Below are positions 1 to 12,012 of a stretch of DNA of 64,000 bases, one piece after another (position 1 is the stretch's first letter; each line of letters starts with the position of its first letter). The position numbers were made by a program, and so were the translations under genes. The stretch is from Pseudoxanthomonas spadix (GTDB lineage: Bacteria; Pseudomonadota; Gammaproteobacteria; Xanthomonadales; Xanthomonadaceae). Where the stretch lies: contig NZ_RDQN01000001.1 in the NCBI RefSeq assembly GCF_003703395.1, positions 186,001 through 250,000 on the forward strand, written 5' to 3'. The notes below the pieces were generated by a model. It saw only the letters and a program-made list of their open reading frames with translations. It searched no databases and was not told the origin of the DNA.

Positions 1-126
1 GGCCTAGTGGCGGTGTTTTCCGAAACCGGCGCGGTGGTGGGACTGGCCCAGCTGTCCAGGGACGGGGTGCTTTCGCCCCAGCGGCTGTTCAACTGGCCGA
101 CCGGCGGCGGCCTGTCGCCGGACTGA
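1..126 (+). CDS. truB: tRNA pseudouridine synthase B, C-terminal end (partial)
   Basis: The window opens inside this gene; only the last 41 codons and the TGA stop at 124-126 are present. The tail contains [14 protein letters not shown] and ends shortly after [10 protein letters not shown], which resembles the C-terminal end of gammaproteobacterial TruB. TruB makes pseudouridine 55 in the T-loop of tRNAs. The downstream order truB-rpsO-pnp is the conserved order in many bacteria and supports the call. The catalytic part lies outside the window, so the identification rests on the tail sequence and the context. Confidence 0.75.
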
Positions 127-130
127 AACC

Positions 131-159
131 TTGTGCCGCAAGGTGGCCCCGCCTACAAT
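131..159 (+). promoter_or_regulatory. sigma70-type promoter of rpsO
   Basis: A -35 element TTGTGC (131-136) and a -10 element TACAAT (154-159) are separated by exactly 17 bases. The promoter starts five bases after the truB stop and would initiate near 166, giving rpsO a leader of roughly 118 nt. This suggests rpsO is transcribed independently of truB. Confidence 0.7.
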
Positions 160-283
160 GCTGCGGCCTTTTCAGGCGCCTGGCCCACGGGCCATTTCCT
201 CAATCGCAAGCGGCGGACCAGGCGGTGCGCGCGGTGGACAGTCCGCGTTCCTGCAGGTCGCGCATCACAAGAGAGCCACCACC

Positions 284-544
284 ATGTCCATCGACACCCA
301 GAAGATCATCGAAGAGAACAAGCGCGCCGCCAACGATACCGGTTCGCCGGAAGTCCAGGTCGCGCTGCTGACCGCCCGCATCGAGCAGCTCTCCGGCCAC
401 TTCAAGACCCACAAGAAGGACCACCACAGCCGCCGCGGCCTGCTGCAGCTGGTCAACCAGCGCCGCAGCCTGCTGGATTACCTGCACCGCAAGGACGCCC
501 CGCGCTACAAGGCCCTGATCGAGAAACTGGGTCTGCGCCGCTAA
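284..544 (+). CDS. rpsO: 30S ribosomal protein S15
   Basis: An 86-residue protein beginning [18 protein letters not shown], the usual length for S15. S15 binds the central domain of 16S rRNA early in small-subunit assembly. The family signature is visible: [15 protein letters not shown] near residues 19-33, then [11 protein letters not shown] near 43-53. I chose the ATG at 284 because the upstream in-frame extension to 131 lies in the promoter and leader and matches no S15. The gene sits between truB and pnp as expected, with its own promoter upstream and a strong terminator downstream. In E. coli S15 represses its own translation through the leader; whether that happens here cannot be read directly. 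Confidence 0.97.
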
Positions 545-558
545 AACCAGAATGACCG

Positions 559-593
559 ACCGCGGCGCAGTGATGCGCCGCGGTTCATTTTTT
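559..593 (+). terminator. Rho-independent terminator after rpsO
   Basis: A perfect 11-bp stem (559-569 pairing with 574-584) with loop GTGA is followed by a T-rich run (588-593). It lies 15 bases after the rpsO stop and about 110 bases before pnp. As in other bacteria it probably only partly separates rpsO from pnp transcription. Confidence 0.85.
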
Positions 594-703
594 CCGGCGA
601 TCGGAAAAAATCGCACTGCAACAACGGCCGCATACGCCGGCCACCCGCGCGCGACAAGGGTCGCAACCGGGTCAACCAGTTCGAGACACTTAGGAAAACC
701 CAC

Positions 704-2812
704 GTGGCAAAAATCACAAAGACCTTCCAGTACGGCAAGCACCAGGTCACCCTGGAAACCGGCGAAATCGCACGCCAGGCCGGCGGCGCGGTCATCGTCA
801 AGTTCGATGACACCGTACTGCTGGTTTCGGCCGTGGCCGCAAAGAAGGCCCGCGAAGGCCAGGACTTCTTCCCGCTGACGGTCGATTACCAGGAAAGGTT
901 CTATGCCGGTGGCCGCATTCCCGGTGGTTTCTTCAAGCGCGAAGGCCGCGCCACGGAGAAGGAGACGCTGATCTCGCGCCTGATCGACCGACCGCTGCGT
1001 CCGCTGTTCCCGGAAGAATTCCGCAACGAGGTCCAGGTCATCGCCACGGTGATGTCGCTGAACCCGGACATCGACGGCGACATCCCGGCCCTGATCGGGG
1101 CCTCGGCCGCCGTGGCCCTGACCGGCGCGCCGTTCAGCGGACCGATCGGCGCGGCCAAGGTCGGCTACATCAACGGTCAGTACGTGCTCAACCCGACCGT
1201 GTCCGAGCTGAAGGAGTCCAGGCTCGAGCTGGTCGTGGCCGGCACGTCCGGCGCCGTGCTGATGGTCGAATCCGAAGCGGCCGAGCTGTCCGAAGAGGTG
1301 ATGCTGGGCGCGGTGATGTTTGGCCATCGCGAGATGCAGAAGGTCATCCACGTCATCAACGAGCTGGTCGTCGAAGCCGGCACCCAGTCCTGGAACTGGA
1401 CCGCCCCGGCCAGGAACCAGGCCCTGGTCTCGGCGCTGAAGGAAGCCGTCGGCGACCAGCTGGCCGAAGCCTTCCAGGTGCGCGACAAGCTGCAGCGCCG
1501 CGACGCCATCGCCGCGATCAAGTCCGACGTGCTGGAGTCGCTGGCCGGCCGCGTGCAGGCCGATGGCTGGAGCACCGCCGAGCTGTCCAAGGAATTTTCC
1601 GAGCTGGAATACCAGACCCTGCGCGGCGCGGTGCTGAGCACCAAGGTCCGCATCGACGGGCGCGCGCTGGACACGGTCCGTCCGATCAGCGCCAAGGTCA
1701 GCGTGCTGCCGCGCACCCACGGCTCGGCCCTGTTCACCCGCGGCGAGACCCAGGCCATCGTGGTCACCACCCTGGGCACTGCGCGCGACGGCCAGGTGAT
1801 TGATGCGGTCTCGGGCGAGTACAAGGACAACTTCCTGTTCCATTACAACTTCCCCCCGTACTCGGTGGGCGAGGCCGGCCGCATGATGGGCCCCAAGCGT
1901 CGCGAGATCGGCCACGGCCGTCTGGCCAAGCGTGGCGTGCTGGCGGTCATGCCGACGATGGAGGAGTTCCCCTACACCATCCGGGTGGTCTCGGAAATCA
2001 CCGAGTCCAATGGCTCCTCCTCGATGGCCTCGGTGTGCGGCAGCTCGTTGTCGCTGATGGACGCCGGCGTGCCGATCAAGGCGCCGGTGGCCGGCATCGC
2101 CATGGGCCTGGTCAAGGAAGGCGACGACTTCGTGGTGCTCTCGGACATCCTCGGTGACGAGGATCACCTGGGCGACATGGACTTCAAGGTCGCCGGCACT
2201 TCCAACGGCGTGTCGGCGCTGCAGATGGACATCAAGATCGAAGGCATCACCGAGGAAATCATGAAGCAGGCCCTGGCCCAGGCCAAGGCCGGTCGACTGC
2301 ATATCCTGGGCGAGATGGCCCACGCGCTGACCACGCCGCGCCAGGAGCTGAGCGAGTTCGCGCCACGCCTGATCACCATCAGGATCCACCCCGACAAGAT
2401 CCGCGAGGTGATCGGCAAGGGCGGCGCGGTGATCCAGGCCATCACCAAGGAAACCGGCACCCAGATCGATATCCAGGACGATGGCACCATCACCATCGCA
2501 TCGGTGAACGGCGCCGCCGGCCAGGCCGCCAAGGCCCGCATCGAGCAGATCACCTCGGACATCGAGCCGGGCCGCATCTACGAGGGCAAGGTCGCCAAGC
2601 TGATGGACTTCGGTGCGTTCGTCACCATCGCGCCGGGCAAGGATGGTCTGGTCCATGTCTCGCAGATTTCCGTCGAGCGCGTGGAAAAGGTCTCCGACAA
2701 GCTCAAGGAAGGCGACCTGATCCGGGTCAAGGTGCTGGAAGTGGACAAGCAGGGCCGCATCCGCCTGTCCATGAAGGCGGTGGAAGACGGTGAGGGCATG
2801 CCGGTCGAGTAA
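704..2812 (+). CDS. pnp: Polynucleotide phosphorylase
   Basis: A 702-residue protein, typical for PNPase, a 3' to 5' phosphorolytic exoribonuclease of the RNA degradosome. Two RNase PH-like domains fill roughly residues 1-540. A KH domain follows with its GKGG loop near residue 570, then an S1 domain near 620-690 ([18 protein letters not shown]). The start is a GTG at 704 preceded by AGGAA at 692-696; translation from there gives the family's MAKITKTF beginning. The long leader between the rpsO terminator and the start is where PNPase/RNase III autoregulation acts in E. coli. A hairpin terminator follows the stop. Confidence 0.97.
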
Positions 2813-2839
2813 CGGTCCGCGCAATGGCTGCAATCGAAA

Positions 2840-2863
2840 AAGGCGGGCCAGTGGCCCGCCTTT
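2840..2863 (+). terminator. Rho-independent terminator after pnp
   Basis: A 9-bp GC-rich stem (AGGCGGGCC with GGCCCGCCT), a 3-nt loop and a short TTT run lie about 30 bases after the pnp stop. The A-rich run upstream of the stem would also let it work weakly on the minus strand, although no minus-strand gene needs it. Confidence 0.75.
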
Positions 2864-2926
2864 CGCGTCTGCGCAAGTAAAAAACAGCGCCTTCAGGCAG
2901 GCGGACGCGCTGCGGCGTGGGCCTCC

Positions 2927-2932
2927 TACAAT
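2927..2932 (+). promoter_or_regulatory. candidate -10 element of the NUDIX gene
   Basis: TACAAT lies 30 bases before the ATG at 2963. No good -35 is visible 16-18 bases upstream (GACGCG), so this is a partial promoter call. Confidence 0.35.
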
Positions 2933-2962
2933 GGTCGATCCTTCACTGCCGTGGCGCTCTCC

Positions 2963-3451
2963 ATGCCTTATACTCCCATCGTTGCCACGCTCGGCTACGT
3001 GCTGTCAGCCGACGGCAAGCAGGTGCTGATGATCCATCGCAACGCGCGGCCCAATGACATCCACCTGGGCAAGTACAACGGGCTGGGTGGCAAGCTCGAG
3101 CCGGACGAGGACGTGCTGGCCTGCATGCGCCGCGAGATCGGCGAGGAAGCCGGCATCGAATGTCAGGCACTGAGCCTGCGCGGCACGATCAGCTGGCCGG
3201 GCTTCGGCAAGCACGGCGAGGACTGGCTGGCGTTCGTGTTCGTGGTCAGCGCCTGGACCGGCACCCCGCTGGCCGAAAATCCGGAAGGCACGCTGGAGTG
3301 GGTGGACCTGGACCGGCTGCTGGAGCTGCCGCTGTGGGAGGGCGACCAGCATTTCCTGCCGCTGGTGTTCGATGGTGACCCGCGCAGCTTCCACGCGGTG
3401 ATGCCGTACAAGGATGGCCGCATGGTCTCGTGGAACGTCTCGCGCGCCTGA
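2963..3451 (+). CDS. NUDIX hydrolase, MutT/8-oxo-dGTP diphosphatase-like
   Basis: A 162-residue protein carrying a complete NUDIX box at residues 43-65 (G-x5-E-x7-REIGEEAGI), which binds the divalent metals that hydrolyse nucleoside diphosphate derivatives. The N-terminal strand MPYTPIVATLGYVLS and the MIHRNARPNDIHLGKYNG segment are typical of the 8-oxo-dGTP/2-OH-dATP diphosphatase branch (MutT/MTH1-like), so nucleotide-pool cleaning is the likely role, though substrate cannot be proved from sequence. The ATG at 2963 fits the family N-terminus better than the GTG at 2951. It stands alone between the pnp terminator and an unusual repeat region. Confidence 0.85.
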   Translation: MPYTPIVATLGYVLSADGKQVLMIHRNARPNDIHLGKYNGLGGKLEPDEDVLACMRREIGEEAGIECQALSLRGTISWPGFGKHGEDWLAFVFVVSAWTGTPLAENPEGTLEWVDLDRLLELPLWEGDQHFLPLVFDGDPRSFHAVMPYKDGRMVSWNVSRA

Positions 3452-3468
3452 GCCTGCGTGGGGCGGCT

Positions 3469-3683
3469 TCATCCACAGATGATGTGGATCACCTTCGGGA
3501 CAAGGATGTGGATAACTTCGGTGTGCGCCTGCAGCGCGACGTCCCGGCCGGGATGGCGAAAAAATGACCCGTGCGTAGCGGTGTATCCACAGGGGCTGTG
3601 GATGACTTCCGGGCAAGGATGTGGACAACCGCCGGAGCGCGTTGCGCGGCAGGCGTGTCAAGTGGTTTGGCGAAAAAATGACC
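3469..3683 (+). repeat. tandem duplicated element with six DnaA-box-like sites
   Basis: The gene-free stretch 3452-3888 holds two diverged copies of a unit of about 113 bp. Each copy has an inverted pair ATCCACA-N5-TGTGGAT (3471-3489 and 3585-3603), a third box 23-24 bases further (TGTGGATAA at 3507-3515, TGTGGACAA at 3620-3628), and the shared 16-mer TGGCGAAAAAATGACC (3554-3569 and 3668-3683). The box at 3507 matches the DnaA consensus exactly and the other five differ by one base. The consensus is established knowledge. A function as a DnaA-titrating, DARS-like or regulatory site is inference. Short minus-strand open frames crossing it contain the repeat and are probably spurious. Confidence 0.7.
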
Positions 3684-3888
3684 AGCCCTGTTGAAGGATT
3701 TCGACGCGCCTTGCTGAAAACCGGTGGCGGGGTGACTGCCGGCCAGGGGCGCTTGCCCGGATGGACCGCGCCGGCCGCGTCCGGTGCCGGTGCTGGCCGC
3801 AGGATCCGCACCGCGTGGCCTTGATTGCCAGGCGACACCGGCCTTGTCAGGCTGTGGCTTCTCTTCTCTTCGCTTACCGGTCAGGCCC

Positions 3889-4509
3889 ATGCCACGACAA
3901 CGCCATTTTTCGATGCTGCGCGATTTCCAGCTGGCCGACTGGTTCACCCTGGGCAACGCGTTCTGCGGCAGTGGTGCGGTGTTCGCCTCGCTGCACTACA
4001 TGCAGCAGGGTCGGGTCGGCGTGCTGCTGATGGGCATGGCGCTGATCCCGCTGGCCTTCATCTTCGATGCGCTCGATGGCCGGGTGGCGCGCTGGCGCAA
4101 TTCGGCTTCCACCCTGGGGCGCGAGCTGGATTCGCTGGCCGACGTGATCTCCTTCGGCGTCGCACCGGCCGCGCTGGCCTATGCCTGCGGCCTGCAGGGC
4201 GGCTGGGACTGGCTGGTGCTGAGCTACTTCATCTGCTGCGGGGTGAGCCGCCTGGCGCGCTACAACGTCACCGCCGAGGCGCTGTCCGCTGACCAGGGCA
4301 AGGTGAAATATTTCGAGGGCACCCCCATCCCGACCAGTCTGACGCTGGTGGTGGTCCTGGCCGTCGCCGCGGCCATGGGCGACATCGGGGCGGACATCTG
4401 GTGGGGTCAGTGGCAGCTGGGGCCGTGGCAGTTCCATCCGCTGGTGCTGCTGTTTGCGCTGTCCGGCTCGCTGATGATCAGCAAGACGCTGCATGTTCCC
4501 AAGCCCTGA
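3889..4509 (+). CDS. pssA: CDP-alcohol phosphatidyltransferase (phosphatidylserine synthase-like)
   Basis: A 206-residue integral membrane enzyme with the complete CDP-alcohol phosphotransferase signature DG-x2-AR-x8-G-x3-D-x3-D at residues 63-85 (D63, G64, A67, R68, G77, D81, D85), where the aspartates bind metal and CDP-diacylglycerol. Several hydrophobic helices flank it. The family exchanges CMP for an alcohol such as serine, giving phosphatidylserine for the inner membrane. The size and the C-terminal ISKTLHVPKP-type ending fit type II PssA. I chose the ATG at 3889, since an extension to 3784 has no family-like sequence. The ribosome binding site is weak. A PgsA-like or choline-using relative cannot be excluded. 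Confidence 0.75.
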   Translation: MPRQRHFSMLRDFQLADWFTLGNAFCGSGAVFASLHYMQQGRVGVLLMGMALIPLAFIFDALDGRVARWRNSASTLGRELDSLADVISFGVAPAALAYACGLQGGWDWLVLSYFICCGVSRLARYNVTAEALSADQGKVKYFEGTPIPTSLTLVVVLAVAAAMGDIGADIWWGQWQLGPWQFHPLVLLFALSGSLMISKTLHVPKP

Positions 4510-4512
4510 CGC

Positions 4513-4539
4513 TTGGCCGAACGCGCAGGTTGCTATGAT
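4513..4539 (+). promoter_or_regulatory. candidate extended -10 promoter of phaE
   Basis: TGCTATGAT (4531-4539) is an extended -10 element, with a weak -35 TTGGCC at 4513-4518 (15-bp spacer). Transcription would start near 4546, just before a GGGAG ribosome binding site at 4553-4557 that serves the ATG at 4565. This supports separate transcription of phaEC from pssA. Confidence 0.55.
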
Positions 4540-4564
4540 CTGGACTGGCGTCGGGAGTGCGGTG

Positions 4565-5755
4565 ATGGCGGGTGCGCAGTCGGGGTGGGATGAGCGGGCC
4601 GAGGCCCTGGGTCGCACGGCCTGGGAGGCCTGGGGCCAAGCACTGCGCAAGGCCGCGGCGGTGCCGCTTGAGATCGCCGCGCCGGCTTGGCAGCAGGTGC
4701 CGGGCGGCTGGCCGGGCTGGACCCCGCCGCAGGGCGTGAACGATGGCGATGTGATGGAGCGATCCGAAGGCATCGCCCGTCACTGGTTTGGCCGCATGCA
4801 GCACGTTGCCGCGCAGTTCGCCGACCGCGACAATACCCCCGAGGAAATCGTGGCCGCCTGGCGCAAGGCCCTGGGGGCGACCGAGGCCAGGCCGTATCCG
4901 GACCTGTTCAGCAGCCTGTTCGGACCCGGCGCGTTCGGCCTGGAAGGGCTGGGCGAACAGTGGATGCCGTGGCTGGAGGCGCTGCGCGGTCCGCTGGACG
5001 AATGGGCCGCGATGCCCGCCTTCGGCCCCGCGCGCGAACATCAGCAGCGCTGGAAGGCGCTGGTGCAGACCCAGCAGGCGCTGCGCGAGGCCGCCGAAAG
5101 CTGCCAGCGCCTGCTGGAAGAGGCCTCGCGTCAGGCGTATGTCCTGTTCGAACAGAAGCTGGGCAAGCGCGCCGAATCAGCCGCGCCGCTGGACAGCGCC
5201 CGCGCGTTGTTCGACGAGTGGATCGACGCGGCCGAGGACGCCTACGAGAAGATGGCCCTGTCCCCCGAATTCAGCCAGGTCTACGCGGCCCTGGCCAACG
5301 CCCAGATGCGCATGCGCGCAGGCATGCAGCGCGAGGTCGAACAGGTCGGCGACATGCTGGGCCTGCCCTCGCGTTCCGAAGTCGATGCCGCGCACCGCAA
5401 GATCCAGGAGCTCGAACGTGCGCTGCGTGGGCTGATGCGCGCCTCCGGGCTGGCTGCGGCGCCGACCGAGCCAGCCACGCCAGGCGCATCCGCTGGGTCA
5501 TCTGCAGCGCGGCCGAAGTCCAGGCGGTCGGCCGATGCCGGGCCCCTGTCCGCTGCACGCAAGTCCAGTTCCAAGGCGGCAGGGCGCAAGACCCAGGCCA
5601 AGGCCGCGCCTGACCCGGCGCCCAAGCGCCCGGCACGCAAGGCCAGCGCCGGCAAGGCTGCCAAGTCCACTGCCAAGGCGGTCGCCGCCGCCAGCAGGCG
5701 CGGCACGGGCAAGGCGCCGGCCACCACGCGCACTCGCACCAAGTCGCGCCCATGA
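4565..5755 (+). CDS. phaE: Class III polyhydroxyalkanoate synthase subunit PhaE
   Basis: A 396-residue protein that I recognise as PhaE from its position immediately before phaC and from its helical, Trp/Gln-rich N-terminal two thirds with the ALANAQMRMRAGMQ-type helix near residues 240-255. PhaE has no catalytic residues; it activates PhaC in the PhaEC complex on polyester granules. The C-terminal region, from about residue 305, is a long Lys/Ala/Ser/Pro tail, probably disordered and basic, resembling nucleoid- or granule-binding tails. The ATG at 4565 is preferred because GGGAG lies 7 bases upstream; the ATG at 4535 overlaps the likely -10 element. It overlaps phaC by 4 bases. Confidence 0.85.
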   Translation: MAGAQSGWDERAEALGRTAWEAWGQALRKAAAVPLEIAAPAWQQVPGGWPGWTPPQGVNDGDVMERSEGIARHWFGRMQHVAAQFADRDNTPEEIVAAWRKALGATEARPYPDLFSSLFGPGAFGLEGLGEQWMPWLEALRGPLDEWAAMPAFGPAREHQQRWKALVQTQQALREAAESCQRLLEEASRQAYVLFEQKLGKRAESAAPLDSARALFDEWIDAAEDAYEKMALSPEFSQVYAALANAQMRMRAGMQREVEQVGDMLGLPSRSEVDAAHRKIQELERALRGLMRASGLAAAPTEPATPGASAGSSAARPKSRRSADAGPLSAARKSSSKAAGRKTQAKAAPDPAPKRPARKASAGKAAKSTAKAVAAASRRGTGKAPATTRTRTKSRP

Positions 5756-6816
5756 GCAGCCCGCTGAAGGTCACCGCCGAGGCCCTGGCGGCCGAAGCCG
5801 CTTCGCTGCGGCACAAGCTGGGCGCCGGCCTGCGTACCCTGCCGGAAGTGGGCGACGTGCATTACGGGGTGACTGCGCGCCAGGAAGTCTGGCGCGATGG
5901 CAAGGTGGTGCTGTATCGCTTCATCGGCCAGCAGGCGCCCACCGCCAGGGTGCCGCTGCTGATCACCTACGCGCTGGTCAACCGGCCCTACATGGTGGAC
6001 CTGCAGGAGGACCGCTCGCTGGTGAAGGGCCTGCTGGCCCAGGGCCAGGACGTGTACCTGATCGACTGGGGCTACCCGGATCGTTCGGACCGGTTCCTGC
6101 TGCTGGACGACTACATCAATCGGTTCATCGACGGCGCGATCGACTACCTGCGCCAGGCCAGCGGCCAGCGCGCGATCAACGTAGTGGGCATCTGCCAGGG
6201 CGGCGCGCTGTCGCTGTGCCATGCCGCGCTGCACCCGCACAAGCTGCGCAACCTGATCACCATGGTTACCCCGGTGGACTTCCACACCCCCGACAACATG
6301 CTCTCCAACTGGGCGCGGCTGGTCGATGTGGACCTGCTGGTGGACACCCTGGGCAACATCCCGGCCGACCTGATGAACCTGAGCTACCTGATGCTCAAGC
6401 CATTCCGCCTGAACGTGCAGAAGTACGTGGGCCTGCTGGACATCCTGGATGACCGCCGTGCGGTGCAGGACTTTTTGCGCATGGAGAAGTGGATCTTCGA
6501 TTCGCCCGATCAGGTCGGCGAATCCTTCCGCCAGTTCGTCAAGCAGTTCTACCAGGGCAACGGGTTTGTCCACGGCGGCATCGTCATCGGTGATCACACC
6601 ATCGATCTGAAGCGGCTCACGATGCCGATCCTGAACATCTACGCCGAGCAGGACCATCTGGTGCCACCGGATGCCTCCAGGGCGCTGCGTGGCTTGGCCG
6701 CCAGTGACGACTACAGCGAGCTCGGTTTCCGCGGCGGCCATATCGGCATCTACGTTTCCAGCCGCGCCCAGCGCGAAGTCCCCGCCGCCATCGCCGGCTG
6801 GCTGGCCGAACGTTGA
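5752..6816 (+). CDS. phaC: Class III polyhydroxyalkanoate synthase subunit PhaC
   Basis: A 354-residue alpha/beta hydrolase that polymerises 3-hydroxyacyl-CoA into polyhydroxyalkanoate. The nucleophile Cys148 lies in the lipase-like box GICQGG, and Asp301 (IYAEQDHLVPP) and His330 (GGHIGI) complete the triad. These match Cys149, Asp302 and His331 of the Allochromatium vinosum class III enzyme, which is about the same length. The ATG overlaps the phaE stop (ATGA), indicating translational coupling and a 1:1 complex. No phaA, phaB, phasin or depolymerase is visible nearby, so monomer supply must be encoded elsewhere or come from beta-oxidation. Confidence 0.93.
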   Translation: MSSPLKVTAEALAAEAASLRHKLGAGLRTLPEVGDVHYGVTARQEVWRDGKVVLYRFIGQQAPTARVPLLITYALVNRPYMVDLQEDRSLVKGLLAQGQDVYLIDWGYPDRSDRFLLLDDYINRFIDGAIDYLRQASGQRAINVVGICQGGALSLCHAALHPHKLRNLITMVTPVDFHTPDNMLSNWARLVDVDLLVDTLGNIPADLMNLSYLMLKPFRLNVQKYVGLLDILDDRRAVQDFLRMEKWIFDSPDQVGESFRQFVKQFYQGNGFVHGGIVIGDHTIDLKRLTMPILNIYAEQDHLVPPDASRALRGLAASDDYSELGFRGGHIGIYVSSRAQREVPAAIAGWLAER

Positions 6817-6952
6817 AGCGCACCCACTGCCACTGTCGGACGCGTGCCGAGGGTGGTGTTGATCGTGTCATGGCCTGGGCCCTGCACCCGGGCATCGGGC
6901 TCTGCCTGCCGCCGTGGTTGCTGATTCCCGACCCGGCTTGAAGCGGCCGCGC

Positions 6953-7402
6953 ATGCCGGCCTGGTTGCGCGCGCTGGCCTGGGGTGCCGGCGCGCTGTGG
7001 ACTGCACCGAATACGGCGATCGGCTTGTTGATCGGCTCGCTCGGGATGCTGCGCGGCGCACGCGTGCACCTCAGTCGAAGCGAACATGCGCTGGTGTTTT
7101 CGCGCTGGCCGTGGGGGCCGGGCGGGGCGATCACCTTCGGCAACAGCATCGTCCATACCGGCGATTCGCTCGACCAGCGTTGCCCCACCTATGCGCACCG
7201 GGCCGGGCGCTGCGTGGAGCCGGCCGTGCGCCTGGGCGATCACGAACGTGCCCACGTGCTGCAATACATGGCACTGGGGCCGCTGTTCCTGCCGTTGTAC
7301 TTGCTGTGCGGCGGGATCAGCGTGCGCAACCGGTTCGAACGCGCCGCCGACCGCTATGCGCTGACCGGGCGCGGCTGGTGGCCGGCGCAGTTGCGCGACT
7401 GA
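6953..7402 (+). CDS. small membrane protein with HExxH...ExxxD motif, function unknown
   Basis: A 149-residue protein with a hydrophobic N-terminal segment (residues 7-32) and another at about 105-121 (MALGPLFLPLYLLCGG). Between and after them lie H97-E-R-A-H101 and E129-R-A-A-D133. HExxH followed by ExxxD is the zinc-ligand pattern of M48-like gluzincins, and here the hydrophobic segment separates the two parts. It is much shorter than HtpX or Ste24, so it may be a minimal membrane peptidase or a degenerate relative; I do not recognise a named family. I chose the ATG at 6953; a GTG at 6914 would add 13 residues. It lies between phaC and a TetR gene. Confidence 0.6.
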   Translation: MPAWLRALAWGAGALWTAPNTAIGLLIGSLGMLRGARVHLSRSEHALVFSRWPWGPGGAITFGNSIVHTGDSLDQRCPTYAHRAGRCVEPAVRLGDHERAHVLQYMALGPLFLPLYLLCGGISVRNRFERAADRYALTGRGWWPAQLRD

Positions 7403-7403
7403 C

Positions 7404-7600
7404 GTCGCCTGGCTGCAGGTCAGGCGCTGGAACCAGACGCGCGTGCAATGGGTGTGGTGGGTTCTGGATCAGGGCGCACGCCGGGCGGCCCTGGCCGAAT
7501 ATGCGCAGATCTGGCAACGCCGCCGGCCAATCTCTTGGGATATCGGCTGGGTCCACCGTCCGTTGCATGTCGGCCCATGCAGGCCGCGTGCAGGCGCTCA
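7404..7600 (+). other. protein-like open frame after the HExxH gene, possible remnant
   Basis: Directly after the stop at 7400-7402, a different plus-strand frame stays open and reads as a plausible Trp/Arg-rich protein (WNQTRVQWVWWVLDQGAR, then AEYAQIWQRRRPISWDIGW). It runs into the tail of the convergent TetR gene. There is no clear start or ribosome binding site except an ATG at 7448 in another frame. It may be the remains of a once longer or separate gene put out of frame, or chance coding. Confidence 0.25.
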
Positions 7601-8266
7601 GCGCGGCAGCGCGCCGTGCAGGAACTGTTCGACCGCACCGTCGATGAAGGCCAGCACCTGGTCGGTTTCGGGGTTGGGCATGTAGCCGCACGCGGTGCGG
7701 ATGGTCAGGTCGCCGAACAGCATCATGAAGAACTGGCTTGCCGCCAGCTCCGGTGTGCTGTGCAGGACCAGCGCGCCGCTGGCGACCTGTTGCTGGAAAT
7801 AGCCGGCCAGGCGGTTGCGGATGGTGGTGACCGCGTTGTCGAAGTACCAGTCGCGCAGCGCCGGGAAATCGCGGCCTTCGCCGATCACGATGCGGTTGAC
7901 CAGGTAGGCATCAGGTGTGGTCAGGCTTTCGGTGATCGAGCGGGCGGCCTTGCGCAGCGCCTGCGGCGGCGGCAGGCCTTTCAGCTCCATGGCGTCCAGC
8001 TGCCGGGTCATGTCCTGCAGGCGGCGCTCGACGATGGCGAAGGCCAGGCCTTCCTTGTCGCCGAAGGCGCGATACAGCGTGGCCAGCGAACCCCCGGCGC
8101 GCGCCACGATCTCGCTCAGGCGCGCGTGCTGGTAGCCCTTTTCGGCGAACACCTCAGTGGCCGCATCCAGAAATTTCTCCACGCGCCGCTCGCCGCGGCG
8201 GCATAGCCCGACCTTGCGCGCGGCGCGCGCCAGCGGGACCGGGGTTGGGGTTGCGGAGGCAGACAT
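7598..8266 (-). CDS. TetR/AcrR-family transcriptional regulator
   Basis: A 222-residue regulator. The N-terminal helix-turn-helix spans about residues 28-75 (EKFLDAATEVFAEKGYQHARLSEIVARAGGS, with the typical LYRAFGDKEGL recognition end). The C-terminal ligand-binding part resembles the AcrR/AefR type with FFMMLFGD near residue 182. It faces phaEC and the HExxH gene convergently, so it may not control them; its own upstream region (8267-8330) contains no obvious long palindrome. The ligand is unknown. Confidence 0.85.
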   Translation of the reverse strand: MSASATPTPVPLARAARKVGLCRRGERRVEKFLDAATEVFAEKGYQHARLSEIVARAGGSLATLYRAFGDKEGLAFAIVERRLQDMTRQLDAMELKGLPPPQALRKAARSITESLTTPDAYLVNRIVIGEGRDFPALRDWYFDNAVTTIRNRLAGYFQQQVASGALVLHSTPELAASQFFMMLFGDLTIRTACGYMPNPETDQVLAFIDGAVEQFLHGALPR

Positions 8267-8511
8267 GGGCAGGCGATCCGGGGAGCGGCGACGCTGGCCA
8301 ATCTAGCAAGAACGGTGCGCCCACGATGTTGCGCCGCAATAGCCGGGACGGCGGACCGCGCGGGCAAGGCCGGCCGGGGCGTGGGCGCCCTGCTTGTGCG
8401 TGACGCGAGGCGCCGCCGGCAAGCGCACCAGCGCCATCGCGGAAGGGGGCGGCGCCAGCGGCCGCGCCGATCACCGGGCGCGGGTTGCCGCCCGGCGCGG
8501 TGGCGGCCCTC

Positions 8512-8606
8512 AGAGGCTGAGAAAAATTCGACCGCCGTAGCGAGAGCGCCGCCGGCACGGGCGTTTGGCGACGGTCGCAGTAGGCGGGCGATTTTTCTCA
8601 GCCTCT
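8512..8606. repeat. 95-bp long hairpin with perfect 16-bp terminal inverted repeats
   Basis: AGAGGCTGAGAAAAAT (8512-8527) is repeated as its exact reverse complement at 8591-8606. The inner arms are also largely complementary, so the whole element folds into one long imperfect hairpin. Its right end touches the last base of the xseA stop codon. The rest of the gene-free stretch 8267-8511 shows no other clear structure. The T-run reading away from xseA (AATTTTT on the minus strand, 8526-8520) allows terminator activity. A MITE/REP origin is possible. Confidence 0.75.
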
Positions 8607-9949
8607 CAGTCCGGGGTCGTTTCCACCCGCACGCCGAGCTGGCCGTCGGCCAGGCGCGCGTTCAGACGGTCACCGACCTTCACCTGGGTGGTCGAACGCA
8701 CCAGTGTGCCGTCGGCCGTGGTGATCAGCGCATAGCCGCGGGCGACGGTCGCCAGCGGGCTGATCGCTTCCAGCGAACGCACCAGGCCGCGCAGGCGCAG
8801 GCTGTCGCGTTGCAGCTGGCGGGCGATGGCCGCCTGCGGACGCGGCTGCAGGGCGGCCAGGCGTTCGGCCAGGGCCGCCAGGCGGCGCTGTGGCGAATGC
8901 GCGCGCAGTGCGCTCAGCGCGTGGCGCAGGCGCGCGCGGCGGCGATCCAGCTGCGCCTGCCACTGCGCCTGCAGGTGGCGCAGTGCATCGGCATGGCGGC
9001 GACGCATCAGCTGCAGCCGCGCCTGCGGGCTTTGTGCCTGCAGGCGCAGACAGGCGCGGTCCACGCGCTGCTGCACCCGGTCCATGCGGTGCGCGTGCAG
9101 GCTGTGCAGGCGCCGGCCCAGCCCGCGCACGCGCATGTCCAGATCGGGCTGGGACGGCACCAGCAGCTCGGCCGCGGCCGAGGGCGTCGGCGCGCGCAGG
9201 TCGGCGGCGAAATCGCACAGGGTGAAGTCGGTTTCGTGGCCCACCGCGCACACCACCGGCACCGCGCAGGCGGCCACTGCGCGGACCAGCGCCTCGTCGT
9301 TGAAGGCCCACAGGTCCTCGATGGAGCCACCGCCGCGGGTCACCAGCACCACCTCGTAACGGCCGCTGTCACCGGCAGCGCGCACCAGTGCAGCGATCTG
9401 CGCCGCGGCGGTGGCGCCCTGCACCTGGGTCGGCAGCACCTCGACTTCCAGCAGCGGAAAGCGCCGGCCCAGCACGCTGATCACATCGCGCACCGCCGCC
9501 CCGCTGGGCGAGGTGATCAGCGCCAGCCGCCGCGGGTATGCGGGCAAGGGCCGCTTGCGTTCGCTGGCGAACAGGCCTTCGCCCGCCAGCCGCGCCCGGA
9601 GCTGCTCGAATGCGCGACGCAGCGCGCCTTCGCCGGCCTCTTCCATGTGGTCCAGCACCAGCTGGTACTCGCCGCGCGCCTCGTACAGGGTCACCCGGCC
9701 GCGGGCGAGCACGCGCAGGCCCTCGCGCGGGACGAACTTCAGCCAGCTGCTCTTGGGCTTGAACATCGCGCAGCGCACCTGGGCGCGGGCGTCCTTGAGG
9801 GTGAAATACAGGTGCCCGGACGCAGGGCGGGTGACGTTGCCCAGTTCGGCCTCGATCCAGATCGCCGGGAAGCTGCCTTCCAGCAGGTCGCGGGCCAGGA
9901 TGTTGAGCTGGGAGGGGGTGAGGATGTCGCGGGCGGGCAGGTCGTTCAT
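8606..9949 (-). CDS. xseA: Exodeoxyribonuclease VII large subunit
   Basis: A 447-residue protein, the normal size of XseA. It begins with the OB-fold domain (residues 10-105, including GHLYFTLKD near 45-53) and continues with the catalytic domain ([17 protein letters not shown] near 142-158, [16 protein letters not shown] near 206-221, and [25 protein letters not shown]). The Arg/Gln/Ala-rich C-terminal half forms the long coiled coil that binds XseB. With XseB it degrades single-stranded DNA. A -10-like TACACT lies 9 bases before its ATG, so the transcript may have almost no leader. It is divergent from ispG across 94 bases. Confidence 0.95.
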
Positions 9950-10030
9950 CTGCGCACCAGTGTACCGAGGCCGGTCAGCTCGCCAGTGGCCTGCCGGCTG
10001 CCGGTCGCCTCGCGGTCACCGGCGCTCCGC

Positions 10031-10036
10031 TAAAAT
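10031..10036 (+). promoter_or_regulatory. candidate -10 element of ispG
   Basis: TAAAAT ends 7 bases before the ATG at 10044. No clear -35 is visible. If it is used, transcription would begin at or next to the start codon, giving a leaderless or nearly leaderless mRNA. Confidence 0.4.
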
Positions 10037-10043
10037 GGCAGGC

Positions 10044-11321
10044 ATGAACGCCATTCCCGCCCCGCTTGCGACCCCAGAACCCACGCCCGTGGCCGCCGCC
10101 GGCCAGCCCCGGCGCATCACCCATCCGGTGCAGGTGGGCAAGGTGCAGCTCGGCGGTGGCGCCCCGGTGGTGGTGCAGTCGATGACCAACACCGACACCG
10201 CCGACGTTGCCGGCACGGTCAGGCAGGTTGCCGAGCTGTGGCGCGCCGGTTCGGAGCTGGTCCGGGTCACGGTCAACAACCCCGAGTCGGCTGCCGCGGT
10301 GCCGCGCATCGTCGACAAGCTGGCGATGATGGGCATCGAGGTGCCGATCATCGGCGACTTCCACTACAACGGGCACCAGCTGCTGGCCAATGAGCCGGCC
10401 TGTGCCCAGGCGCTGGCCAAGTACCGCATCAATCCGGGCAACGTCGGTTTCGGCAAGAAGCGCGACACCCAGTTCGCCCAGCTGATCGAGCTGGCCATCC
10501 AGTACGACAAGCCGGTGCGCATCGGCGCCAACTGGGGCTCGCTGGACCAGTCGCTGGCCGCGCAGCTGATGGACGAGAACGCCCGGCGCGCCACCCCGTG
10601 GGACGCCACCGCGGTGCTGCGCGAGGCGCTGATCCGTTCGGCCCTGGATTCGGCCCATCGCGCGGTGGAGATCGGCCTGCCGGCCGAGCGCATCGTGCTG
10701 TCGGCCAAGGTCTCCGGCGTGCAGGAGCTGATCGCGGTGTACCGCGACCTGGCCCGCCGCAGCCCCTTCGCCCTGCACCTGGGCCTGACCGAAGCCGGCA
10801 TCGGCTCCAAGGGCATCGTCGCCTCGTGCGCGGCGCTGGCGGTGCTGCTGCAGGAGGGCATCGGCGACACCATCCGCATCTCGCTCACCCCCGAGCCGGG
10901 CGCCTCGCGCACCCAGGAAGTCATCGTCGCCCAGGAGCTGCTGCAGACCACCGGCCTGCGCGCGTTCACGCCGATGGTCACCGCCTGCCCGGGCTGCGGG
11001 CGCACGACCAGCGAGTTCTTCCAGGAACTGGCCAAGGTCGTGCAGGAACACGTGCGCGGCAAGATGCCCGAGTGGAAGATCACCCGTCCCGGCGCCGAGC
11101 ACATGACCCTGGCGGTGATGGGCTGCGTGGTCAATGGCCCGGGCGAATCGCGCCACGCCAACATCGGCATTTCGCTGCCGGGCACCGGCGAAGCGCCTTC
11201 GGCGCCGGTGTTCGTCGATGGCGAAAAAACCGTCACCCTGCGCGGCGAGAACATCGCCCAGGCATTCGTCGCACTGATCGACGAATACGTCGACGCGCAT
11301 TATTCGCGCAGTGCCGCCTGA
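10044..11321 (+). CDS. ispG: 4-hydroxy-3-methylbut-2-enyl diphosphate synthase (GcpE)
   Basis: A 425-residue enzyme of the non-mevalonate isoprenoid pathway that reductively opens methylerythritol cyclodiphosphate to HMBPP. The [4Fe-4S] ligands are visible as Cys315 and Cys318 (ACPGCGRT) and Cys361 ([10 protein letters not shown]), followed by the usual glutamate. The TIM-barrel part carries [11 protein letters not shown] and IGDFHYNG. The start at 10044 (alternatively 10035) follows GGCAGG; sequence upstream is antisense to xseA and not IspG-like. In many gammaproteobacteria ispG sits between rodZ and hisS; here rodZ is at 58.6 kb without it, so the gene has moved in this lineage. Confidence 0.95.
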
Positions 11322-12012
11322 GCCGGGGGTCGGCGGCGCCGGTGTCGTCGGCCGCGTGCTGCGGCGGATCGGCTGGCGCACGGGCCTGTTGTTCGTGGCG
11401 ATCCTGCTGCCCCTGTGGGGCTTTGCCGAACTGGGCGAGGAGGTCCATGAAGCGGAAAGCTTTGTCTTCGACCAGCCGCTGCTGTTGCGCGCCAGGGCTG
11501 CCTCGGGTCCGTGGCTGGACCAGGCCTTCCTGGCCATCAGCTGGGCCGGCTACCAGGGCGTGATCATCGCCGATGTGCTGTTGATCGTGGCCCTGCTGGC
11601 GCTGCGACGCTGGCGCGAGGCAACCTTTGCCGGCGTGGCGGTGATCGGCTCGGCGCTGTTGAACGTGGGCACCAAGCAGCTGTTCGGACGTGCCCGTCCG
11701 AGCCTGTGGCCGTCGATCTCGCCGCAGGACAGCTTCAGTTTTCCCAGTGCCCATGCGATGGGCTCGATGACCCTGGTGATGGTGCTGGTGCTGCTGGCCT
11801 GGGGCACGCGCTGGCGCTGGCCGGTGCTGGTGCCGGCGGTGCTGTTCGGCCTGTCGGTGGGCGTCTCGCGCATCTACCTGGGCGTGCACTATCCCTCGGA
11901 CGTGCTGGGCGGCTGGGCCGCGGCGATGGCCTGGACGATGGGGGTCTATGCGGCGGTGTTCTCCGGCCTGCGCCGGCCGTGGAGGACGCCGCAAGCGGGC
12001 GCGCCGCGCTGA
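11311..12012 (+). CDS. PAP2-family membrane phosphatase
   Basis: A 233-residue protein with about five membrane helices and the three type 2 phosphatidic acid phosphatase motifs: KQLFGRARP (K-x6-RP), FPSAHAMG (the PSGH motif with Ala for Gly), and [12 protein letters not shown] (SR-x5-H-x3-D). The family removes phosphate from lipid phosphates such as undecaprenyl pyrophosphate or phosphatidate at the outer face of the inner membrane. A GTG at 11311 overlaps the ispG stop by 11 bases; a GTG at 11356 is also possible. The ispG neighbour supplies isoprenoid precursors, so an undecaprenyl-PP role is attractive but unproved. Confidence 0.85.

Follow-up and report, generated by a model that had tools for sequence, protein, structure and literature searches.

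A tandem pair of probable DARS-type DnaA-box elements with a dyad motif at fixed spacing in Pseudoxanthomonas spadix

DnaA is the protein that starts chromosome copying. The closest described counterparts of the locus reported here are the DnaA-reactivating sequences (DARS) of Escherichia coli, DARS1 (101 bp) and DARS2, each of which carries three DnaA boxes at one and the same spacing in the two sites, with box I in the opposite orientation to boxes II and III (PMC5742627); the DnaA molecules on boxes I and II interact head to head (PMC8682772). Full activity in vitro needs 42 bp flanking the last box (PMC4585315), and a DARS1 flank of ~50 bp enhances ADP dissociation in vitro, its role in vivo being described as undetermined (PMC5742627). 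DARS2 needs IHF and Fis, DARS1 is independent of IHF in vivo, and Fis and the DARS2 core are conserved in the gammaproteobacteria related to E. coli (PMC4245941). Since sequences similar to DARS1 and DARS2 are stated to be conserved in many proteobacteria (PMC10380432, citing another paper), that DARS exist outside E. coli is in itself no new idea. Our literature search, covering titles and the starts of abstracts, found no description of DARS in Xanthomonas, Pseudomonas or Vibrio, and for intergenic DnaA boxes in Xanthomonadaceae a title-level search found only the classification of oriC. Within this coverage, we did not find described the dyad site held in a single phase, the shifted third box, the tandem arrays at several loci or the association with priA that are presented below.

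The window, that is, the whole 64-kb stretch of DNA analysed (C1:186001-250000), belongs to a 3.37 Mb draft genome in 26 contigs. In the gap between the end of a NUDIX gene at 3451 and the start of pssA at 3889, it contains an array (3469-3684) of two diverged copies of a ~102-bp element (Table 1). An earlier note on this DNA had described two diverged copies with six DnaA boxes and two A-tract motifs, all of which we recovered in place; its period of about 113 bp becomes a copy-to-copy step of 114 bp (3469 to 3583). The array holds six of the nine boxes in the 64 kb that lie within one mismatch of TTATCCACA (shuffle mean 2.39), in agreement with the view that such clustering is unlikely by chance, and one of the six, at 3507-3515 on the minus strand, is indeed a perfect DnaA consensus. 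The inverted pair ATCCACA-N5-TGTGGAT reported for each copy is also far beyond chance: with up to two mismatches allowed, the window has two matches, both exact, against a shuffle mean of 0.06, and 0 of 100 shuffles reached two. The copies are identical in 72 of 104 aligned columns, 40 of 45 within the sites versus 32 of 59 elsewhere, which bears out the claim that the sites are kept while the rest differs. The claim of a conserved 16-mer A-tract held in part. In both copies, TGGCGAAAAAATGACC begins at +85, counted from the start of box I (3554 and 3668), the motif of copy 1 terminating in CCC instead of CCA; it is no invariant word, and in relatives it is a degenerate dyad. No Rfam RNA family matched positions 1-12000 of the window at the gathering score, and the IHF consensus WATCAANNNNTTR had no match in 3441-3720.

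Table 1. Features of the array and its flanking genes (window coordinates; offsets in bp from the first base of box I).
Feature	Position	Strand	Basis
NUDIX hydrolase gene, upstream of array	2951..3451 (GTG 2951, or ATG 2963)	+	ORF; name recognised from sequence
DARS-like unit 1	3469..3570	+	profile R1 61.6 bits, R2 50.4 bits
Unit 1 DnaA box I, TCATCCACA	3469..3477	+	<=1 mismatch from TTATCCACA
Unit 1 DnaA box II, TGATCCACA	3483..3491	-	14 bp start to start from box I
Unit 1 DARS box III position (+26), degenerate TCGGGACAA only	3495..3503	-	
Unit 1 strong third box, perfect TTATCCACA, at +38	3507..3515	-	
Unit 1 dyad-type motif TGGCGAAAAAATGACCC at +85	3554..3570	no strand	
DARS-like unit 2	3583..3684	+	profile R1 81.4 bits, R2 76.6 bits
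Unit 2 DnaA box I, GTATCCACA	3583..3591	+	<=1 mismatch from TTATCCACA
Unit 2 DnaA box II, TCATCCACA	3597..3605	-	<=1 mismatch from TTATCCACA
Unit 2 DARS box III position (+26), degenerate CCGGGCAAG	3609..3617	-	
Unit 2 third box, TTGTCCACA, at +37	3620..3628	-	<=1 mismatch from TTATCCACA
Unit 2 dyad-type motif TGGCGAAAAAATGACCA at +85	3668..3684	no strand	
pssA-like gene (phosphatidylserine synthase family), downstream of array	3889..4509	+	ORF; name recognised from sequence

Genome-wide, the exact paired-box word occurs at three places, two of them in the array, and the exact 15-mer GGCGAAAAAATGACC only at the two places of the array. A profile built from 19 units (R1) detected four units at three loci in this genome: the two in the array, one between tyrA and dapB (C1:559040-559114, with the motif TGGCCAGATTTTCGCCA at +84) and one upstream of priA (C22:250045-250140), the last being weak with R1 (E 0.005). 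This priA element reads TTATCCACA-N5-TGTGGATAA-N3-TGTGCATGG, followed by TGGTGAAAAAAACGCCA at +85, and thus reproduces the complete DARS1 arrangement of boxes (0, +14 and +26) and motif (+85). Opposed boxes I and II at a start spacing of 14 bp are found in both window units and in the two other units of the genome. The pattern that the earlier note had named as speaking against its reading, hundreds of random sites with unconserved spacing, is absent from this genome, with its four units at three loci and their conserved spacing.

E. coli DARS1, located between bioD and uvrB, has its boxes at 0, +14 and +26 and TGGCGTTAAAGACGG at +85. It resembles the window units in the opposed boxes I and II at 14 bp, the motif that starts with TGGCG at +85 and the compact size of ~100 bp. 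It differs from them in its box III at +26, a position which in the window units is degenerate in the orientation of box II, their strong box lying at +37/+38; in having only half of the dyad; in being single-copy in E. coli versus tandem here; and in its neighbouring genes. Within the stimulatory flank of DARS1, ~50 bp beyond the core, the TGGCG at +85 is common to both and the rest of the dyad is not. R1 matched DARS1 with 14.7 bits (E 0.003 in 94 kb). A second profile (R2), built from 93 Xanthomonadaceae matches and no other family, matched it with 20.1 bits over model positions 1-92 of 99, and R2 gave no other match at E<=10 among 224,504 E. coli K-12 bases, which included oriC, datA, DARS2 and priA-rpmE (DARS1 E 1.8e-4, or about 0.004 when scaled by hand to the chromosome, a rough calibration). 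The R2 match stops at TTGGCG and thus shows neither the A/T centre nor the right arm of a dyad in E. coli. Used as a query, E. coli DARS1 DNA matched 29 of the 369 genomes of the class sample, in the core only, with no match in the four Xanthomonadaceae genomes of that sample; several places were found by both DARS1 DNA and R2 (G511:C76:1288, G539:C4:127666, G353:C40:16254, G463:C82:5617 and G560:C307:4361).

DARS2 (455 bp, between rppH and mutH) was left unmatched by R2 within the 224.5 kb of E. coli at E<=10. With up to two mismatches per box, DARS1 and a single place in the DARS2 region are the only occurrences of the 14-bp head-to-head pair in 220 kb of E. coli; to this likeness between DARS2 and the array may be added the published co-factor role of Fis (PMC4245941). 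However, the IHF and Fis sites that DARS2 requires extend over about 400 bp, whereas the array is devoid of an IHF consensus. The E. coli DARS2 region also contains TGGCGAAAGATCAACCA (L030, position 2321), a sequence resembling the dyad, 185 bp from the box at 2136. As bioD, uvrB, rppH and mutH lie beside none of the 120 listed stretches of the class-wide scan described below, there is no synteny with E. coli.

In related genomes, a search of which the earlier note had proposed, R1 (E<=0.001) detected the element in 45 of 54 genera of the family Xanthomonadaceae: 166 of 198 genomes matched, at 1-14 units each, and the other 32 had no match at this threshold. The exact 15-mer GGCGAAAAAATGACC is present in 16 of the 198, its TGG sitting 84-86 bp from box I among the places listed, except in L020, which has the motif next to the boxes in inverted orientation. 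Several loci recur across genera, with the element adjoining nudix and/or pssA (genera g1, g11, g29, g30, g43 and g51), tyrA (g1, g7, g29 and g50) or priA (g1, g4, g14, g26 and g37). The NUDIX orthologues next to the element in other genera are 73-79% identical, and the pssA orthologue adjoins it there too; the closest named relative at the nudix-pssA locus, among the matches listed, is Pseudoxanthomonas sp. GM95 (nudix 89%, pssA 92%). The note also suggested that the array might control pssA or the NUDIX gene, but the element has other neighbours as well, tyrA-dapB, priA and miaB among them, which makes this an unlikely main role. Clusters of six to nine units were seen at L065 323-1604 (genome G173, which has 14 matches overall) and at G138:C1:4160080-4162501.

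Beyond the family, R2 (E<=0.001) matched 173 of 369 class genomes and 144 of 272 genera. In a sample of the phylum, 57 of 299 matched at E<=1e-4; 33 of these fell outside the class, where most of the matches listed stop before the dyad motif. Among 26 loci fetched outside the family, chosen by profile and counted by hand, TGTG stands at +26 in 21 and TGG at +84 to +86 in 18; priA is adjacent in seven. Contigs titled Phycisphaerales and Klebsiella pneumoniae (both MAGs; L123 and L136) carry the element and may be mis-binned.

To define the anatomy of the element, we filtered 93 family matches for redundancy and quality and aligned the 81 non-redundant units left on box I. With box I at 0, they have box II at +14 and the dyad at about +85, and their best third box (>=7/9 letters) lies at +37/+38 in 59 units, at +26 in two, and is absent at that strength in 20. 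The A-tract 16-mer proved to be one version of a dyad of 17 bp (TGG-N2-A-W5-T-N2-CCA) that stands at +85 relative to box I. We scanned a named genome collection for TCCACA-N5-TGTGGA followed, after a gap of 50-80, by this dyad, and obtained at least 120 stretches from sources including Pseudomonas, SAR86, Luminiphilus, Alcanivorax, Methylomonas, Marinicella, Thioalkalivibrio and Achromobacter, besides Xanthomonas, Stenotrophomonas and Lysobacter; many of these sources are related, so that the counts are not independent. Among 125 non-redundant matches listed, the gaps were 53 (2), 54 (7), 55 (1), 63 (1), 64 (14), 65 (90) and 66 (10), that is, 63-66 in 115 and 53-55 in 10, with no others within 50-80; a gap of 65 corresponds to +85 from box I. 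The short-gap variant, with the dyad ~11 bp (one helical turn) nearer the boxes, was seen in L125, L152, L156, L176, L187, L192, L194, L216, L225 and L228. Among the 128 class-wide scan matches listed, 53 had the third box at +26 and 40 had it at +37/+38, while two had it elsewhere and 33 lacked it; the redundancy keys differ between the 125 matches of the gap count and the 128 of the third-box and arm counts. Since the gap classes differ by one helical turn, as do the third-box positions, these data suggest that rotational phase matters. Because the loci for a further count of offsets, made with a relaxed motif, had been picked by motif or profile, that count is partly circular, and the case for conserved spacing is that of the gap scan. 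The steps between tandem copies cluster near 114, 126, 137 and 148 bp, as if the copies were held in phase, though common ancestry is possible; we did not use this clustering as evidence because the values were taken by hand from a non-exhaustive list and the lineages are related.

The TGG, the CCA and the A/T centre of the dyad were imposed by the search pattern and are therefore not counted as evidence. Against 2000 shuffles of the right arms, the inner arm positions (5 and 13) were complementary in 63 of 128 listed motifs (shuffle mean 40.7, maximum 58) and both arm pairs in 44 of 128 (mean 22.3, maximum 35), the outer pair (positions 4 and 14), at 63 of 128, being no better than the shuffles (mean 60.0, maximum 77). 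Because the dyad is symmetric, its partner might be a homodimer. Fis is our leading guess. The 15-bp sites of this protein are bordered by G/C and centred on A/T, prefer T/A at +/-8 and show a Y-R step in ~80% of half-sites (PMC4784862). The dyad resembles the high-affinity ones in its G and C borders, the T/A outside them and the A/T centre, and differs in the frequency of the Y-R step, 163 of 256 half-sites of the listed scan motifs versus about 80% (PMC4784862). The pattern GnnYAnnnnnTRnnC fits 60 of the 128 listed motifs, against a mean of 51.2 and a maximum of 59 in 2000 arm shuffles, and the motif of the window fits it on one half only, the left half failing. With only the inner arm pair exceeding the shuffles and the outer pair at their level, we do not claim Fis as a proven partner. 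The published points on the IHF independence of DARS1 and on Fis conservation (PMC4245941) cut both ways for a role of Fis at sites of the DARS1 type. DnaA (PF08299), a Fis homologue (43-51% identity) and Hda (TIGR03420, over cut-off) were each found in all 25 genomes examined, which makes it plausible that these genomes have a DnaA ATP/ADP cycle needing recharging.

We placed 75 clusters relative to dnaA in 24 single-contig family genomes. Their arm positions were below 0.3 in 16 cases, 0.3-0.5 in three and >=0.5 in 56 (KS p 8e-5), and 57 of the 75 were oriented with the replication fork (p 7e-6); both statistics ignore relatedness. All six of the 16 near-origin clusters whose loci were fetched lie beside priA. 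The E. coli arm positions, derived by hand from record coordinates, are ~0.66 for DARS1, ~0.41 for DARS2 and ~0.20 for datA, and the near-origin element (16 of 75 clusters) is unlike both DARS1 and DARS2 in location.

We read the array as a pair of DARS-type elements, with a probability of roughly 0.68, and we file it as a DARS variant because its strong third box is displaced by 11-12 bp past the place of box III in DARS and because R2 leaves DARS2 unmatched. The earlier note had proposed a datA- or DARS-like function; the DARS-like part is well supported by the geometry, the profile match to DARS1 and the conservation in unrelated gene contexts, whereas the datA-like part is unsupported. In the mechanism that we infer, from DnaA binding and ADP release to the identity of the partner and the effect on initiation, ADP-DnaA would bind boxes I and II head to head and the third box would stabilise the complex. 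Contact of the AAA+ domains would then eject ADP, and the apo-DnaA would leave and reload with ATP, yielding more initiation-competent DnaA. The dyad at +85 would be bound by a homodimeric DNA-bending protein, most likely Fis, and the fixed rotational phase of this partner might let it shape or contact the DnaA complex.

Alternatively, the boxes might merely bind and store DnaA, the dyad being an independent nucleoid-protein site. The array consists of clusters of good boxes, and E. coli DnaA has been argued to be titrated, with DARS1, DARS2 and datA representing a large fraction of the titration power (PMC12371093). However, titration would do without a fixed head-to-head geometry and without a phase-locked partner site, and 56 of the 75 clusters lie in the terminus-side half of the arm, whereas E. 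coli boxes are enriched near oriC (PMC12371093); we consider this explanation unlikely. The elements could also be DnaA-responsive promoter elements regulating neighbouring genes, as their intergenic positions and their strong association with priA would allow: of the 120 scan stretches listed, 30 have priA no more than 700 bp away, the PriA there being as little as 37% identical to that of this genome. Such a role is improbable, since the module stands beside many unrelated genes, also in tandem, and keeps its internal spacing fixed while the gene context varies. Among the same 120 stretches, 60 are near none of the genes queried.

Like datA, the array is an intergenic cluster of DnaA boxes outside oriC, and several genomes have copies near the origin, where E. 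coli has datA. A complex promoting the hydrolysis of DnaA-bound ATP is nevertheless quite improbable here, as the 8-kb datA stretch showed neither a profile match nor a 14-bp head-to-head pair and the array lacks the IHF consensus expected of a box cluster around an IHF site. A dispersed mobile or REP-like repeat with DnaA boxes present by chance, which might account for tandem copies and several loci per genome, is hardly credible: the copies are diverged with their conservation concentrated in the sites, the loci are orthologous across genera and the spacing is kept class-wide.

The reading as DARS-type elements can be extended to an evolutionary proposal, which we hold tentatively and put at somewhat below even odds. 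A compact DARS with a phase-locked homodimer site, for Fis or an unrecognised partner, may have been the ancestral DnaA-recharging module of gammaproteobacteria, of which DARS1 would be a decayed descendant. The Xanthomonadaceae would have multiplied this module into tandem arrays at dispersed places; the level of ATP-DnaA would then be set by how many there are and by their replication-timed dosage, and an ancient copy would stand beside priA near the origin. The element offers a signature for recognising DARS-type sites across much of the Gammaproteobacteria and a candidate explanation for the flank of E. coli DARS1, whose in vivo role was described as undetermined (PMC5742627). The genomes with 1 to 14 units constitute a natural series for models of how dosage and position act in DnaA recharging.
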